From Rubrobacter tropicus (GTDB lineage Bacteria; Actinomycetota; Rubrobacteria; Rubrobacterales; Rubrobacteraceae): a DNA stretch of 64,000 nucleotides. Location of the stretch: NCBI RefSeq assembly GCF_011492945.1, contig NZ_CP045119.1, positions 2,852,001 to 2,916,000 of the forward strand, read 5' to 3'. The notes beneath the pieces were generated by a model. It did no database searches, had not been told where the DNA came from, and worked only from the letters and a program-made list of their open reading frames with translations. The position numbers were made by a program, and so were the translations under genes. Below are positions 9,192 through 62,168 of the stretch, piece by piece (positions within the stretch are counted from its first letter, which is position 1; the number at the start of each line of letters is the position of its first letter).

Positions 9192-10031
9192 CTAGCGCCT
9201 CCTTCCTTTCCTGCGCCGGCGCACGATCATGGCGTCCGAACGCTTGTGCTTCTTGCGGGTCGGCGACCCCTGGGTGATCTTGCCCCAAGGCGTGACGGGC
9301 GCACGACCCGGCGTGCTCTTGCCCTCGCCACCACCATGAGGGTGGTCGACCGGGTTCATGACCGTACCACGCACCGTGGGACGGATCCCGAGGTGGCGCT
9401 TCCGGCCGGCCTTGCCCCACCGGACATTCTGGTGCGACTGGTTCCCGACGACCCCGACGGTCGCCCGGCACTCGGAGCGGACCCTGCGGCGCTCGCCGCT
9501 AGGCAGCCTGAGCGTAACCAGGCTCCCCTCGCGCGCCGTGAGCTGGGCGCTCGTCCCGGCGCTGCGGGCCATCTGGGCCCCGCGGCCAGGCTCTAGCTCG
9601 ACCGCGTGGACCACGGTGCCGACCGGGATCCTGTTCAGCGGCAGCGTGTTCCCGACGTCCACCTCTGCGTCGGGGCCGCTCATCACGAGCGAGCCGACGG
9701 TCAGGTTCCTCGGGGCGAGGATGTAGCGCTTCTCGCCGTCGTGGTAGTGGAGCAAGGCTATGTTGGCCGAGCGGTTCGGGTCGTACTCGATGGCGGCGAC
9801 CGTCGCCGGCACGCCGTCCTTGCGCCGCTTGAAATCTATGAGGCGGTAGCGCCGCTTGTGGCCGCCGCCGATGTGGCGGGTCGTTATGCGGCCCTTGTTG
9901 TTCCGGCCGCCGGTCTTGTGCAGCTTGGTAGTAAGCTTCTTCTCCGGCTTGTCTCTGGTAACCGAGTCGCGCGTGAGGACCGAGGAGTTCCTGCGGCCAG
10001 CGCTCGTCGGCTTGTAACGTCTCGCAGGCAT
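9192..10031 (-). CDS. rplB: 50S ribosomal protein L2
   Basis: Required for subunit joining and peptidyl transfer. The 279 residues contain the RNA-binding domain [37 protein letters not shown] and the C-terminal [27 protein letters not shown] with the conserved histidine of the peptidyl-transferase region. Length is normal. Confidence 0.97.
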
Positions 10032-10032
10032 C

Positions 10033-10320
10033 CTAGACTCCCTCGAACAGCTCTATGCTCTCGCCCGGCGCCAGCTTCACGACGGCCTTCTTCCACACGG
10101 CCGTCCGGCCCCTGGTGAGGCCCTGACGCTTGGGCTTGCTCTTGACGTTCACCGTGTTGACCCTCGCGACGCTGACGTCGAAGGCCCCCTCCACGGCGCG
10201 TTTGATCTGGTTCTTGTTCGCCCGCCGGTCTACCTGGAAGGTGTACTGCCCCTCCGTCTCGATGAGGTTGTAGCTCCTCTCCGAGATGACCGGACGGATG
10301 ATTACCTGATGCGGATCCAT
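10033..10320 (-). CDS. rplW: 50S ribosomal protein L23
   Basis: Exit-site protein that docks trigger factor and SRP. The 95 residues show [64 protein letters not shown], which is canonical. It overlaps rplD by one base. Confidence 0.95.
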
Positions 10321-54293: not shown

Positions 54294-54374
<81 letters not shown>

Positions 54375-55578: not shown

Positions 55579-55729
55579 CCTCAGACGAGCCACAATGCCA
55601 CGTAAGCTATTGCGAGGGCTATCCGGTATGGATGGCCCTCTTTCTCTATCAGACACCACCACGACACAGATTTAACGCTGAATCGGCGTATATTCTCCGA
55701 TGTTACTAGCTCGAACAAGAAGAATTGTA

Positions 55730-55758: not shown

Positions 55759-55839
55759 GATTATGTAAGGTATTGCACTTCCAGACCATCGGCACGCGGA
55801 TTAGTACGTCTGATGCTCGGTTTATCAATAATCGCAATC

Positions 55840-55867
55840 GTTACAAAACCGTTACATGATTGTTACA
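55840..55867. promoter_or_regulatory. three GTTACA repeats at 11-base steps
   Basis: GTTACA starts at 55840, 55851 and 55862, exactly one helical turn apart, so a protein could bind all three on one DNA face. Position after the promoter and before the HTH genes suggests an operator or an iteron set. Confidence 0.6.
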
Positions 55868-55956
55868 AGGACGCAATGAATAACCCCTGCCATTCCGTTT
55901 CTAAGATATTGAGAGAGCAAACAGAAAGTCAATCCACAGAAAGGCGGTGAAAGCGA

Positions 55957-56154
55957 ATGGGCTACGTGAACATGCCCGAAGCGATGTATAGCGTGAAGCA
56001 ATGCGCGGCCATACTGAAAATCAGTCGTCAGGCTTTGTACCAAGGCATCAAGGCGGGTCGGGTGAACGCAAGTGTTGACGAGGTTAACCAACTGCGAATC
56101 TCAGTACCGGAGACGTACCGATTGCTAATGAATGGCTTTGGACAGAAGGACTGA
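55957..56154 (+). CDS. small HTH protein, excisionase-like
   Basis: The 65 residues MYSVKQCAAILKISRQALYQGIKAGRVNASVDEVNQLRISVPETYRLLMNG have a winged-HTH/MerR-like fold pattern (VKQCAAILKISRQALYQGIKAGRV) as in excisionases. The N terminus may start at the second Met (55972). It is the first gene of the plus-strand operon and could be Xis or a repressor. Confidence 0.7.
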   Translation: MGYVNMPEAMYSVKQCAAILKISRQALYQGIKAGRVNASVDEVNQLRISVPETYRLLMNGFGQKD

Positions 56155-56195: not shown

Positions 56196-56408
56196 ATGAC
56201 GAAGATGATGAACCTCATAGACGTAAGGAACATGCTCGGGCTAGGCACCAATCAGGTCATACGTCTGGTGCAAAGCGGCGAACTTCGCTGCTATAGGTAC
56301 TCGGGAACCGGAGTCCTCAACAAGAACGAAGTTACGGTAGATACACACGGACTCAGGTTCAGGGAATCCGATGTTGAAGAACTGCTAGAAGCAAGCCTTA
56401 TCCGCTAA
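56196..56408 (+). CDS. small HTH protein, second excisionase-like gene
   Basis: The 70 residues MNLIDVRNMLGLGTNQVIRLVQSGELRCYRYSGTGVLNKNEVTVDTHGLRFRESDVEELLEASLIR follow the HTH_17/Xis pattern (helix-turn-helix, then a wing, then FRESDVEELL). AGGAGA precedes the ATG. Not clearly related to the gene before it. Confidence 0.7.
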   Translation: MTKMMNLIDVRNMLGLGTNQVIRLVQSGELRCYRYSGTGVLNKNEVTVDTHGLRFRESDVEELLEASLIR

Positions 56409-56430: not shown

Positions 56431-58077
56431 ATGAATACAATGCTAGACCCACGTATTGACGTGCCACAAGACGAAGATAAGCAAGACCTCAGAGAGTTTC
56501 CGACAGAAGTATTCCCGACGACTGTAGCTAGATTCATAAGCGAAGCCGCAGCATCAACGGTAGTGCCGCCAGAGATGGTAGGCGTACCGCTCTTGGTAGG
56601 TTTTGCGAGTGCCATAGGAGCGAGCAGGGTTATTGAGGTACACGAAGATTGGCACGAACCATCAACGCTCTATGCCGCCGTGATAGGCGACCCAGGAGTT
56701 AAGAAGTCTCCCGCAACCAATAAGGCTTTCCGGTTCGTTGAGGACCAGCAGAAGGAACTACGGAAGGCGTACCGATACGAACGTAAGAAGTACGAGAGCG
56801 ACACCAGCGACACCAGCGACGCCAATTCTAAAGAGGAACCGAAGCTAGAGAGGGTATTGGTTGACGATACCACCGTAGAAGGTCTGGCTATGGTTCTGGA
56901 CGAGAACAGGCGTGGCGTGCTCGTACATCGTGATGAACTTAGCGCGTGGATTAGGAGCATGGACCAGTACAAGACAGGTAAAGGCTCAGACCGCCAATTC
57001 TGGCTATCTGCATGGACCAACAAATACCATTCCGTTGATAGGAAGGGTCAGAAGGAACCTATCATGTTGGATAGGCCATGCGTATCTGTATACGGTGGCA
57101 TCCAACCAGAGGTACTACACGAAGTCAGGAACGGTAGAGAGGATGGTTTGCTAGATAGGTTCATCTTCACGTATCCCGAGAAGATGCGCAGCAGGTGGAC
57201 GGAAGAGAGGATTTCGGACCAGTCAAAAGAAGCTGTTAGGGAAGTATACGATACTCTACGAGGTCTGGAACTGAACGAGGATGGTCAGATACCAGTCAAG
57301 TTTGATGCCGATGCCAAGCACCTTTACGTACAACTCTACGACCAGCATCAAGAAGAGATGGAAGTACCCGGATTTCCTACTCGTCTCGTTGGTCCGTGGT
57401 CAAAGCTAGAAGGCTACCTAGCACGTCTAACACTGGTGCTTAGTTTGGTCCGTTCTTCCCACGATGGTACGCCGGAGAGAATAGAGATTGGCGATGTACT
57501 GAAAGCTAATGTGCTACTGGATTACTTCAAGGACCAGACCCGTAAGGTTTATGGTGAGATGTTTGAGCAAGACCCGATGGACCAGCTTGCTATAGACGTG
57601 GTGAAATTCGTTGATGCTGTTGGTGGTCGCATCAAGGAAGAACCCACGTTCATATTCCAAGTGCTAAAGAGCGACTATAAACCAGAACGCTCAGATGAAC
57701 TCACCAAGAAATTGAAGAAGATAGCCAAGCGCGTACCCGACCTTGAGGTAGACCACGGAACCACGGCCAATACTGGTGGTAGGCGTTGGCTTTCCATAAC
57801 TCTGAAAAATGGCGTCGCTGCCGTCGCTGCCGTCGCTGGTGAGCCTCTGACGAGGGCAGAAGCCAGCAAGGGGGCAGATTTGACACAAGGCACGAAGCTA
57901 GCCATTCCAGACGGCAGCCAGTCAAAGGAATACGTGGTGGAACTCGGTACGCGGCTGATTCTCTATGCGCTCGACAGACAGACGCACGATTGGCAGTGTC
58001 ATACCGAGGCCGTGAAGATTATGGAAAGACGTTACGACGAAGCAGAGAAGCAACGAAACGGCGAAGTGCCATTCTAG
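56431..58077 (+). CDS. DUF3987 family primase/helicase-like protein
   Basis: The 548 residues match the DUF3987 pattern (YfjI-like, found in phages and satellites). FPTTVARFISEAAASTVVPPEMVGVPLLVGFASAIG is followed by a P-loop-like IGDPGVKKSPATNK (86-98), a Walker-B-like VLVHRDELSAWIRSM (163-177) and GGIQPEVLHEVRNGREDGLLDRFIFTYPE. It probably acts in element replication; this is inferred from the family. A DTSDTSDANS insert and a VAAVAAVAG microrepeat (GTCGCTGCC units near 57815-57840) are low-complexity stretches. Confidence 0.82.
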   Translation: MNTMLDPRIDVPQDEDKQDLREFPTEVFPTTVARFISEAAASTVVPPEMVGVPLLVGFASAIGASRVIEVHEDWHEPSTLYAAVIGDPGVKKSPATNKAFRFVEDQQKELRKAYRYERKKYESDTSDTSDANSKEEPKLERVLVDDTTVEGLAMVLDENRRGVLVHRDELSAWIRSMDQYKTGKGSDRQFWLSAWTNKYHSVDRKGQKEPIMLDRPCVSVYGGIQPEVLHEVRNGREDGLLDRFIFTYPEKMRSRWTEERISDQSKEAVREVYDTLRGLELNEDGQIPVKFDADAKHLYVQLYDQHQEEMEVPGFPTRLVGPWSKLEGYLARLTLVLSLVRSSHDGTPERIEIGDVLKANVLLDYFKDQTRKVYGEMFEQDPMDQLAIDVVKFVDAVGGRIKEEPTFIFQVLKSDYKPERSDELTKKLKKIAKRVPDLEVDHGTTANTGGRRWLSITLKNGVAAVAAVAGEPLTRAEASKGADLTQGTKLAIPDGSQSKEYVVELGTRLILYALDRQTHDWQCHTEAVKIMERRYDEAEKQRNGEVPF

Positions 58078-58372
58078 GTTAGACAACTTCATATAGAGTC
58101 GTTTGGCGCTGCTGCTGGCGCTGGTCTTAGCTTTGGTGTAAGTACCGCCGTTAAACGGCGGGGCATACATGAGAGTGGTACGGCTCATTCCGGCTCTACT
58201 CTGTTAGCGGGTTGGCAGAGTACGAGGGTTGACGCGGTTTTTGCGGTCTTGATAGGTCGCCGCAATATTCATCTCCTTCTTCCGCTATGGAACCTTTCCG
58301 AAGCCGCAACCCGCTTATTCAGATGTATACGCAGGATTCAGCGTTAAATCACGATTGATTGGAGACTTTGAA
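58078..58372. other. intergenic region inside the element
   Basis: 295 bases with no gene seen. CCGCCGT-TAA-ACGGCGG (58145-58161) is a strong small hairpin without a T run, just after the DUF3987 gene. GCGCTGCTGCTGGCGCTGG is a short triplet-like repeat. A GGAGA ribosome site precedes the next ATG. Confidence 0.5.
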
Positions 58373-58575: not shown

Positions 58576-59400
58576 ATGGAACAACAGAAACAGTTGTCAT
58601 TGCGAGACTTCTACGACTCGTACCAGTACAACAAAACCACGTTGGATAAGGCTTTGACGAAGCTCGAAGAAGAAGCGGCAGACATCAACGCTCAGCTAGA
58701 GCAGCGGATGGCCGCACAGAGCCGTATAGCGACCGCTCAGAGAGAAATTTCTAGTTTGAAAGGCGAGAAATCAGACCTCTTCCTTGAGTGGCAACAGGCG
58801 GAGTTTGACGACTCGCAGGAAGTAAAGAAGGAGCTCAAGAACAAACGCCGGCAGATTGATGAACGCATCTCGGAACTGGAAGAGAATATACGTGAAGAAC
58901 GTTCCTCAATGCCAGCCGTTGACAAGACCCACGCTGCTAACTTGGCGGTACGGAAGGATATGCTCAAGCCTCTTAACGTGGGGGCTTTCATGGAGAAGTT
59001 GAAAGCGATGTTGGACACCGATGCTAACGATTTGAACGCGAGAATCCGAGCCATCAGTGTTCCATCCTCTGCGTATAAATCCGACGAGTACGAGGCTATC
59101 CGAGCAGGCAAGGATATGAGCTACGCGATGCAGCTATCGCAGCATAAGCGTCTAGCGGCCAAAGAAGCCGAGAAGCGTAAGAAGATGCGGCCAGTATCAA
59201 GCACAGATGAAATGCACAACATTATGAGCGGCAGACGCAAGCCTAACGATGACCGCATGAGCGTAACCAGCAAGGGCGAGAAGGTGAAAGGCTATTCGGA
59301 ACGTCGGGTAAGCAACGACGAAGGCGACCGCAGCCATGTTCTTAGCGGTGATGAAGTTAGAGCGGCATTGGCAGAGAAGCAGGCGAAAAAAGCTAGTTGA
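58576..59400 (+). CDS. coiled-coil protein, function unknown
   Basis: 274 residues. Residues about 20-115 are a long heptad-rich helix (LDKALTKLEEEAADINAQLEQRMAAQSRIATAQREISSLKGEKSDLFLEW ... RRQIDERISELEENIREERS). A smaller helical part follows, then a polar tail with SKGEKVKGYSERRVSNDEGDRSHVLSGDEVRAALAEKQAKKAS. This resembles phage scaffold or tail-tape-like helices only in composition. It is the gene before the iteron/hairpin region. Confidence 0.65.
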   Translation: MEQQKQLSLRDFYDSYQYNKTTLDKALTKLEEEAADINAQLEQRMAAQSRIATAQREISSLKGEKSDLFLEWQQAEFDDSQEVKKELKNKRRQIDERISELEENIREERSSMPAVDKTHAANLAVRKDMLKPLNVGAFMEKLKAMLDTDANDLNARIRAISVPSSAYKSDEYEAIRAGKDMSYAMQLSQHKRLAAKEAEKRKKMRPVSSTDEMHNIMSGRRKPNDDRMSVTSKGEKVKGYSERRVSNDEGDRSHVLSGDEVRAALAEKQAKKAS

Positions 59401-59404
59401 AGTA

Positions 59405-59501
59405 GGAAACCAAGCATGGGATAGGAAACCGCACTTATCCGCATTCCCATGCGTGGTTTCCCGGTTTTGGTTTCCACCGTATTTATTAGTTTTGGTTTCC
59501 A
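59405..59501. promoter_or_regulatory. iteron and hairpin region, candidate origin or packaging site
   Basis: GGAAACC occurs at 59405 and 59424, and its complement GGTTTCC at 59455, 59469 and 59494. 59405-59421 and 59445-59461 form a 17-bp inverted repeat with one mismatch. TTTTGGTTTCCA is present twice (59465-59476, 59490-59501), 25 bases apart. It lies between the coiled-coil gene and the HTH gene. Confidence 0.6.
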
Positions 59502-59539
59502 ACAGGCGAGTTTTGGACGCCACAAAGAAGGGATTAAAA

Positions 59540-60115
59540 ATGGGCGAGATTGACAAAAGAAAGAGAACGGAAGAGGAGAGATTGGAACTAGCTAACCAAG
59601 TGTTGGCGTTGAAAGAGGCGGGTTGGACTAGACGAGAGATTACCAAGGAACTGAAAATCTCTTCCAAGAGCATCCAACCGCTCTACGATTTGGCTATCGC
59701 CAACATACCCATTCCCGACAAGGAGACGGTACAGAGGGAGAACATCGTACAGATTCGCGCCAAGATGGACGAGGTTAACAGGCGTCTTGCTGACCCCGAC
59801 CTACCCATCACGGCCACCAACGTACCGAACCTCATACATCAGTGGACGAAACTAAGAACCGAACTCAACAAGGTTCTGGAAGTGGGAGTAAAGACGAAGG
59901 TTGACATCGGCATTGACGGTACGTTGTTCGACATCATCAAGAACAATCCGGCCTACTACGAGGGCGTTACCGACGAGATACACGCGGAGAACGACCAGCG
60001 AAAGAGGACGGCGCAAGAACTCGACGTAGAAGAGGACGTACTAGAGTTTGACGAGTCGGATGGCGTTTACAAACTGCCCTCAGAAATCGAGGATGACGCT
60101 AAGGGCGAGTCCTAG
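59540..60115 (+). CDS. HTH protein resembling a small terminase subunit
   Basis: 191 residues from ATG 59540 (GAAGGGATTAAAA upstream). The longer open frame back to 59336 runs through the iteron region and the previous gene, so I reject it. N-terminal HTH: EERLELANQVLALKEAGWTRREITKELKISSKSIQPLYDLAIANI (about 10-55). A helical middle (QIRAKMDEVNRRLADPDLPITATNVPNLIHQWTKLRTELNKVLEVGVKTKVDIG) and an acidic tail follow. Layout resembles phage small-terminase-like proteins. That assignment is weak. Confidence 0.6.
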   Translation: MGEIDKRKRTEEERLELANQVLALKEAGWTRREITKELKISSKSIQPLYDLAIANIPIPDKETVQRENIVQIRAKMDEVNRRLADPDLPITATNVPNLIHQWTKLRTELNKVLEVGVKTKVDIGIDGTLFDIIKNNPAYYEGVTDEIHAENDQRKRTAQELDVEEDVLEFDESDGVYKLPSEIEDDAKGES

Positions 60116-60671: not shown

Positions 60672-60920
60672 ATTATACGTGGACGTATACCATGCTGCGT
60701 ATACATCCTATGTATAGTCCATACCCTGCATAGCCCCACTCGCATAGCCTATGGTCCTCACCTACCAGTAGATGTTACTCGTACATAGATACAGTAGCGT
60801 ACATCTACCCGTACTTCTCTACTGATTAGGACTGGATGAGACTGGCCTTTTGTTTTCAGCTACCTACACCGTTCGGACCAATTTACCCGCAGCACGTTTA
60901 ACGTCCTCAGTCGTAACGGT
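60672..60920. other. AT-rich non-coding stretch
   Basis: About 250 bases with repeated GTATAC and CATAG elements and an inverted repeat GTAGATGT/ACATCTAC (60768-60775, 60801-60808, 25 bases apart). No gene seen; possibly regulatory. Confidence 0.45.

Positions 60921-62087: not shown

Positions 62088-62168
<81 letters not shown>

Follow-up and report, generated by a model that had tools for sequence, protein, structure and literature searches.

What is the role of a cluster of short repeated boxes lying between two genes of a 7.8-kb element inserted in the chromosome of Rubrobacter tropicus? The cluster occupies positions 59405 to 59501 of the stretch analyzed here (the window: 64,000 nucleotides of contig NZ_CP045119.1, positions 2,852,001 to 2,916,000 of the forward strand). 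Its anatomy suggests a putative packaging-initiation site of the cos or pac type, bound by a small terminase (TerS) and laid out like the cosB site of phage lambda, in what would be a phage satellite. It is the likeliest of the readings considered, with about an even chance of being right. Coordinates of the features discussed are collected in Table 1; genes are designated by the position at which they start.

A box cluster upstream of a small-terminase-like gene

A gap of 139 bp separates the stop of the 58576 gene (59400) from the start of the 59540 gene, both genes reading on the same strand. It contains five heptamer boxes without mismatch: GGAAACC at 59405 and 59424 and GGTTTCC at 59455, 59469 and 59494, thus ordered - - + + + along the gap. 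Three of them fall within an inverted repeat whose 17-nt arms, separated by 23 nt, match at 16 of 17 positions (94% complementary); the arm complementarity extends past the boxes, and the box at 59424 lies inside the hairpin loop. The other two boxes are part of GTTTTGGTTTCCA, an exact 13-bp direct repeat present at 59464-59476 and again, 25 nt further, at 59489-59501. A second inverted pair joins the ends of the gap's repeat region (59402-59413 / 59492-59503). The preliminary description of this DNA had reported the five boxes, a large inverted repeat (as a 17-bp hairpin) and the two direct copies, all of which are present. Its term "iterons" is right in that boxes are repeated and loose in that their spacing is irregular (19, 31, 14 and 25).

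The cluster is real and not a product of chance. When the element was shuffled with its dinucleotide composition kept, no heptamer reached more than three copies per 97 bp (n = 200; 159 shuffles gave two copies and 41 gave three). Likewise, TTGGTTTCC has three copies in the window (expectation 0.16), a count attained in none of 100 shuffles. In ten element shuffles, the best inverted repeat with 17-nt arms (loop 3-60) had 12 to 14 matches, compared to 16 at the site, and the segment folds better than all of 200 shuffled versions, both as RNA (z -3.4) and as DNA (z -3.8). Heptamer clusters of at least five copies number seven in 270,429 bases (the window plus 14 loci), two of the seven, including this one, having boxes in both orientations. 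The boxes are spread over all three frames and point both ways, and hence do not reflect a peptide repeat. An open frame that shares the frame of the 59540 gene does cross the gap, beginning with an ATG at 59336; the frames of the boxes, and the ribosome-site-like AAGAAGG preceding the ATG at 59540, disfavor a coding interpretation.

The neighboring gene had been called terminase-like, and two lines of prediction bear this out. In a search of 296 genomes of the phylum, proteins related to the 59540 product at E < 0.001 were found in its own genome and in one other, G109 (E 6.9e-5). The G109 relative (L044:9232-9738) is encoded in a prophage, directly upstream of and overlapping the large terminase gene, terL (phrog_979, 5.3e-64). 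This is the gene position expected of TerS; the window gene itself has no adjacent terL. The two proteins share 29 of 90 residues in a BLASTP alignment across the helix-turn-helix (HTH) and the first following helix (hhalign P 5.5e-5, probability 66%). A second prophage of the same genome (L087) has, at the same place, a gene for a 151-aa HTH protein 29% identical to the L044 protein (MAFFT). The second line is structural. The AlphaFold2 model of the 59540 protein (predicted local distance difference test score, pLDDT, 62, with a low-confidence C-terminus) combines an HTH with a helical hairpin, which is the TerS plan according to an extract of PMC9611059. VIA-align listed 50 entries for this model, most covering one half of it. 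Four span at least 100 residues and three of these are small terminases: 6ejq (Z 6.8, root-mean-square deviation [rmsd] 3.3), 4xvn (Z 6.6, rmsd 3.9) and 6v1i (Z 6.1, rmsd 4.2), in a comparison that does not exclude protein families absent from its listing. The fourth is ParB 1zx4, with an rmsd of 14.2. By its relative beside terL and by its modeled fold, the 59540 gene is classed as TerS-like.

Wider searches added little to this picture. Relatives of the 59540 protein were absent from the viral contigs, phages, plasmids and genome contigs searched, and a search of phages with its L044 relative gave a chance match only. A two-row profile run on 396 genomes of the phylum matched in five, three of these being weak HTH matches. 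Comparison of the prophage TerS pair with psiM2 TerS (hhalign) revealed no relation. phrog_645, tried as a marker, was discarded as a general HTH family matching 38 of 39 genomes of the host family.

At 39 bp before the 59540 gene, the cluster is where a packaging site would be expected if that gene indeed specifies TerS; repeated boxes of the kind an HTH protein could bind are present, as boxes. The preliminary description had proposed "an origin or a packaging site". The TerS-like neighbor and the position, comparable to that of lambda cosB, strengthen the packaging half of this proposal. Judging from the protein families, infection by a helper phage would lead to excision of the element at the 81-bp tRNA-Met repeats and to its replication by its own DUF3987 helicase. 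The TerS-like protein, whose gene immediately follows the site, would then bind the five boxes via its N-terminal HTH and recruit the large terminase (TerL) of the helper, so that element DNA would be cut and packed into helper capsids.

A number of results weigh against this reading. The TerS assignment draws on a single relative by sequence and a model with a pLDDT of 62 whose Z scores are middling on the tool's own grading. With Foldseek alone, no PDB entry matched the model with E < 0.3, and matches in a viral structure library were mostly unnamed or HTH proteins, three named TerS appearing among the first 18. Among curated families, the best match was phrog_645 ("Rnase E", 8.8e-8), a TerS PHROG reaching only 0.042; Pfam and NCBIfam gave no TerS match. 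Scanning of the host genome with three models (phrog_979, PF03354 and phrog_2) detected no terL, hence no resident helper is known. As to the DNA, no match to the site was found in phages, the TTGGTTTCC pair did not recur in a second genome among 39 of the family, and no cosN or other cleavage site was recognized, none of the short inverted repeats listed standing out. Nor are there such boxes in the gap preceding the TerS gene of a distantly related element (L102, see below). Three prophages of the host family (L044, L087 and L088) have in common a motif upstream of terS, GGCCGGGCGGCG..CCTCCTTTCCCTCTC, its significance being 0 of 500 shuffles for two prophage pairs and 2 of 500 for the third. 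This motif is a candidate for a conserved cos element of the family's prophages. It has no match in the window, where comparison with the three prophages gave scores that 121, 449 and 137 of 500 shuffles equaled. Finally, in nine regions upstream of terS no heptamer exceeds three copies and six regions have two at most. Lambda, sk1 and psiM2 have three, while HK97, N15, phi80, PSA, phiC31 and L044 have fewer (the phiC31 region is upstream of the first gene, not of an annotated terS; the HK97, N15 and PSA regions are shorter than 100 bp, because their records begin at a terminus of the phage DNA or close to it). When 250 bp upstream of terS are considered, the maximum is three copies in L087 and two in L088, L102 and L044. 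With at most three heptamer copies in the comparison regions, multi-box sites are not a general rule.

Similar box pairs were also sought in viral contigs. They occur in 12 stretches, most of them inside open reading frames (ORFs) and some as peptide repeats (L123, L127). Four of the contigs (L117, L119, L125 and L128) represent one phage type. In L118 the pair lies about 370 bp past the 3′ end of a gpA-type terL. None of the 12 pairs directly precedes a recognized terS, and that of L126, inside a phage replication O gene, adds to the points on the other side in that it favors origins. A direct comparison of the window gap with the region upstream of the L044 terS (CATGCGTG) was set aside: 517 of 1000 shuffles did as well, and 121 of 500 when scored differently, neither result being significant.

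A more elaborate scheme is conceivable, if doubtful: a satellite, from a little-studied lineage, with a complete specificity module of its own (a TerS unlike the curated families and a five-box, cosB-like site) that redirects the TerL of the helper, and whose origin consists of two separate, mutually inverted iteron arrays on either side of the helicase domain, inside the DUF3987 gene. If so, packaging piracy would have evolved separately from Rpp and from the TerS of Staphylococcus aureus pathogenicity islands (SaPIs). Should the packaging reading itself be right, TerS and site would form a compact, cloneable pair. In the literature searched, and with the wording used, we found no description of such a pair or of such an element; as represented in extracts, work on actinobacterial phage satellites includes Streptomyces satellite phages. 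Packaging signals are seldom recognizable from sequence, and a multi-box site next to its own TerS would therefore be a useful test object for the way TerS reads DNA.

Operator, origin and RNA readings of the boxes

An operator is the strongest of the rival explanations, although we consider it unlikely. The 59540 HTH protein, or one of the small HTH proteins of the element, would bind the boxes and regulate transcription from the packaging gene onward. Inverted boxes 39 bp before the start of an HTH gene, overlapping nothing else, are in a typical operator placement; the element encodes at least three other small HTH proteins, and a TerS role and autoregulation are compatible with each other. 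However, a scan for sigma-70-like promoters, covering that type only, found none in 59400-59540. The 59540 gene is the next in a series of genes sharing its strand, and five irregularly spaced boxes over 96 bp are many for an operator.

A replication origin is distinctly improbable in our view, and the origin half of the earlier proposal is weakened. Here the boxes would be iterons bound by an initiator, with the hairpin or an AT-rich spacer as the site where DNA melts or the DUF3987 helicase assembles. The strongest single point for such a role is a heptamer cluster with the same - - + + + order in the 3′ part of the DUF3987 gene of L033; the division of the boxes, two on one strand against three on the opposite one, and the similar boxes in the O gene of L126 go in the same direction. 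Yet the segment that separates the two sets of boxes (59431-59454) is not AT-rich. Furthermore, PICI (phage-inducible chromosomal island) origins, Gram-positive and Gram-negative, lie immediately 3′ of the replication gene according to an extract of PMC6092414, whereas the site is 1.3 kb past the DUF3987 gene, behind two genes. No heptamer has more than two copies just 3′ of the DUF3987 gene (58078-58372), and for lack of an iteron origin at this place we call the element PICI-like rather than a PICI.

The DUF3987 gene also has arrays of its own, a set of three 9-bp units and an inverted partner set, at codons 123-131 and 461-469, flanking most of the DUF3987 domain match (131-375). None of 100 synonymous-codon shuffles of the gene recreated the paired arrays. 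Under a strict test (a hexamer three times within 36 nt and its reverse complement three times elsewhere in the gene plus 100 bp), which was defined after the arrays had been noticed and was applied to related, hence not independent, loci, such pairs occur in six of 14 DUF3987 genes (window, L032, L034, L035, L041 and L043) and in none of 38 control ORFs (other ORFs of at least 450 aa from 17 loci, the window included). A relaxed version gave 7 of 14 and 1 of 38. Without the 100-bp flanks, the strict pair survives only in the window gene and in L035. Array units are 8-9 bp long, vary in sequence from gene to gene and lie inside or at the end of the genes; L033, L037 and L038 have, instead of paired arrays, an adjacent inverted set near the 3′ end of the gene. 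An origin in or near the DUF3987 gene is the more likely location. Paired inverted iterons in these genes would render the origin of a widespread, little-studied class of replicons testable; none of the literature matches listed on this subject mentions DUF3987. As a separate observation, locus L032 has nine exact copies of CAGAGGC at 12-bp spacing (9944-10046), about 0.9 kb past the 3′ end of its DUF3987 gene.

An RNA element appears very improbable. The hairpin would form in the transcript and, together with alternative pairings of box 1 (to box 3 or to box 5), regulate how the 59540 protein is translated. The fold is strong, as the z score of -3.4 indicates (none of 200 shuffles as good), and the pair 59402-59413 / 59492-59503 offers an alternative hairpin. 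Any inverted DNA boxes would fold in this manner, however; the stem ends some 63 nt before AAGAAGG, there are no relatives for a covariation analysis, and at gathering thresholds Rfam finds no family in the window beyond tRNAs. A terminator was rejected, the hairpin having no T run and none being predicted there by a scan.

The element and its surroundings

The element is bounded by an exact 81-bp repeat that includes a tRNA-Met gene in either copy, and is about 7.8 kb long. Its G+C content is about 50% (mostly 43-60%), compared to 63-70% outside. One strand carries, in order, genes for an integrase, two small HTH proteins and the DUF3987 helicase, a short ORF, the gene for a 274-aa protein, the boxes, the 59540 gene and an 85-aa ORF. 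The right part of the element has an ORF with a SWIM zinc finger, on the opposite strand, and another HTH gene.

Table 1. Features of the element and related features, in window coordinates unless a locus is named.
Feature	Position	Strand	Remarks
Attachment-site repeat, left copy	54294..54374	.	81 bp, exact; tRNA-Met 54297-54371 (-) inside (ARAGORN)
Tyrosine integrase, 366 aa	54478..55578	+	Phage_integrase 1.1e-26; phrog_1 6e-67
Small HTH, AlpA/excisionase-like	55957..56154	+	HTH_17 6e-5 (below Pfam cut-off); phrog_2907 excisionase 0.0027
Second small HTH, excisionase-like	56196..56408	+	HTH_17 3.1e-6; TIGR01764 1.8e-4 (below cut-off)
DUF3987 replication helicase, 548 aa	56431..58077	+	PF13148 5.7e-62; phrog_2373 DNA helicase 5.3e-41
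Iteron array in DUF3987 gene	56797..56823	+	units AGCGACACC, AGCGACACC, AGCGACGCC
Inverted partner array in DUF3987 gene	57811..57837	-	three GTCGCT units, 9-bp spacing
Helical/coiled-coil protein, 274 aa	58576..59400	+	AlphaFold2 pLDDT 72.7, mostly helical; stops just before the boxes
Inverted repeat	59405..59461	.	arms 59405-59421 / 59445-59461; contains boxes 59405, 59424, 59455
Two GTTTTGGTTTCCA direct repeats	59464..59501	+	GGTTTCC boxes 59469 and 59494
Small-terminase-like protein, 191 aa	59540..60115	+	predicted HTH, residues 11-54; helical hairpin, 61-116
Attachment-site repeat, right copy	62088..62168	.	81 bp, exact; tRNA-Met 62091-62165 (-) inside (ARAGORN)
Motif GGCCGGGCGGCG..CCTCCTTTCCCTCTC	L044 9110-9150		upstream of terS
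Motif GGCCGGGCGGCG..CCTCCTTTCCCTCTC	L087 3606-3770	-	upstream of terS
Motif GGCCGGGCGGCG..CCTCCTTTCCCTCTC	L088 6760-6930	-	upstream of terS

The gene layout is that of a PICI-like phage satellite: the integrase gene adjoins tRNA-Met attachment repeats, and int, regulator, replication gene and terS-like gene follow one another in PICI order. Scans of 10 likely genes against Pfam and PHROG recognized no phage structural or lytic genes (capsid, tail and lysis included), and the element yielded no large terminase. A conjugative element was rejected, as none of the 10 scanned proteins is of the FtsK-like transfer type. The 58576 protein had no convincing family match in Pfam, PHROG and further profile scans. 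Most relatives of the DUF3987 protein are 700-950 aa long, as opposed to 548 aa in the window, and they occur in 16 of 39 genomes of the family. Within the 14 regions fetched, a 59540 relative was present in L044 only, a locus chosen for its TerS, and a 58576 relative in none; the viral contigs yielded no relatives of either the DUF3987 or the 58576 protein.

Further repeats are found elsewhere in the element. A perfect 16-bp inverted repeat, GATTTAACGCTGAATC, flanks the HTH-HTH-DUF3987 block (55669-55684 and 58335-58350). Beside its 58335 copy lies TGCGTATACATC (58322-58337), seen again at 60696 (60692-60707). These repeats are possibly a shared operator or an accessory site for recombination. 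Three GTTACA-type repeats, about 12 nt apart (55838-55870), lie upstream of the first small HTH gene and possibly constitute its operator.

Comparison with known packaging systems

The site most resembles lambda cosB, upstream of nu1 (terS), in having short boxes in two orientations, one inverted pair and a position directly before the terS start. An extract of PMC9026076 gives cosB as R3-I1-R2-R1, bound by TerS, with R2 reversed relative to R3 and R1. The lambda record has GTTTCC at +54, -114 and +156; an inverted repeat spans the second and third of these, and the start of nu1 is at 191. The GTTTCC core is common to lambda and to the GGTTTCC boxes of the window, most likely by coincidence, the likeness of layout not being due to descent. 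Differences are the number of boxes (five versus three), their order, and the fact that no cosN or IHF site was recognized in the window. The cosB of E. coli PICIs, in the same extract, has no repeated R sequences where the window has five boxes; N15 and the E. coli PICIs are described there as packaging without repeats.

For the protein, the nearest structural parallel is the small terminase of Thermus phages G20c and P74-26, whose HTH and helical hairpin align jointly with the 59540 model over 100-107 residues. Identity is 14-15%, with weak Z. These phages package by headful.

As an element, the Rubrobacter island resembles PICIs and SaPIs in being small and inserted at a tRNA gene and in carrying int, an AlpA-like HTH, a replication gene and a terS-like gene on one strand. 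It differs in its size (7.8 kb versus about 15 kb) and in its DUF3987 helicase. In E. coli PICIs cos lies beside rpp, and Gram-positive PICIs may carry their own terS (extracts of PMC9026076 and PMC6092414).

A distant counterpart was found in an Ammonifex metagenome-assembled genome (L102, 1546-11179). This candidate phage satellite encodes an integrase next to tRNA-Lys, two HTH proteins, a primase, DUF3987, a clear TerS (phrog_4044, 1e-29) and a minor head protein. Its TerS family, its separate primase and its minor head protein set it apart. The related integrase beside a tRNA gene and the succession of HTH, HTH, DUF3987 and then terS are as in the window. It is on account of these parallels, namely the lambda-like design of the site, the terS and cos plans of PICIs and the gene order of L102, that we read the box cluster as the putative packaging signal of the element.
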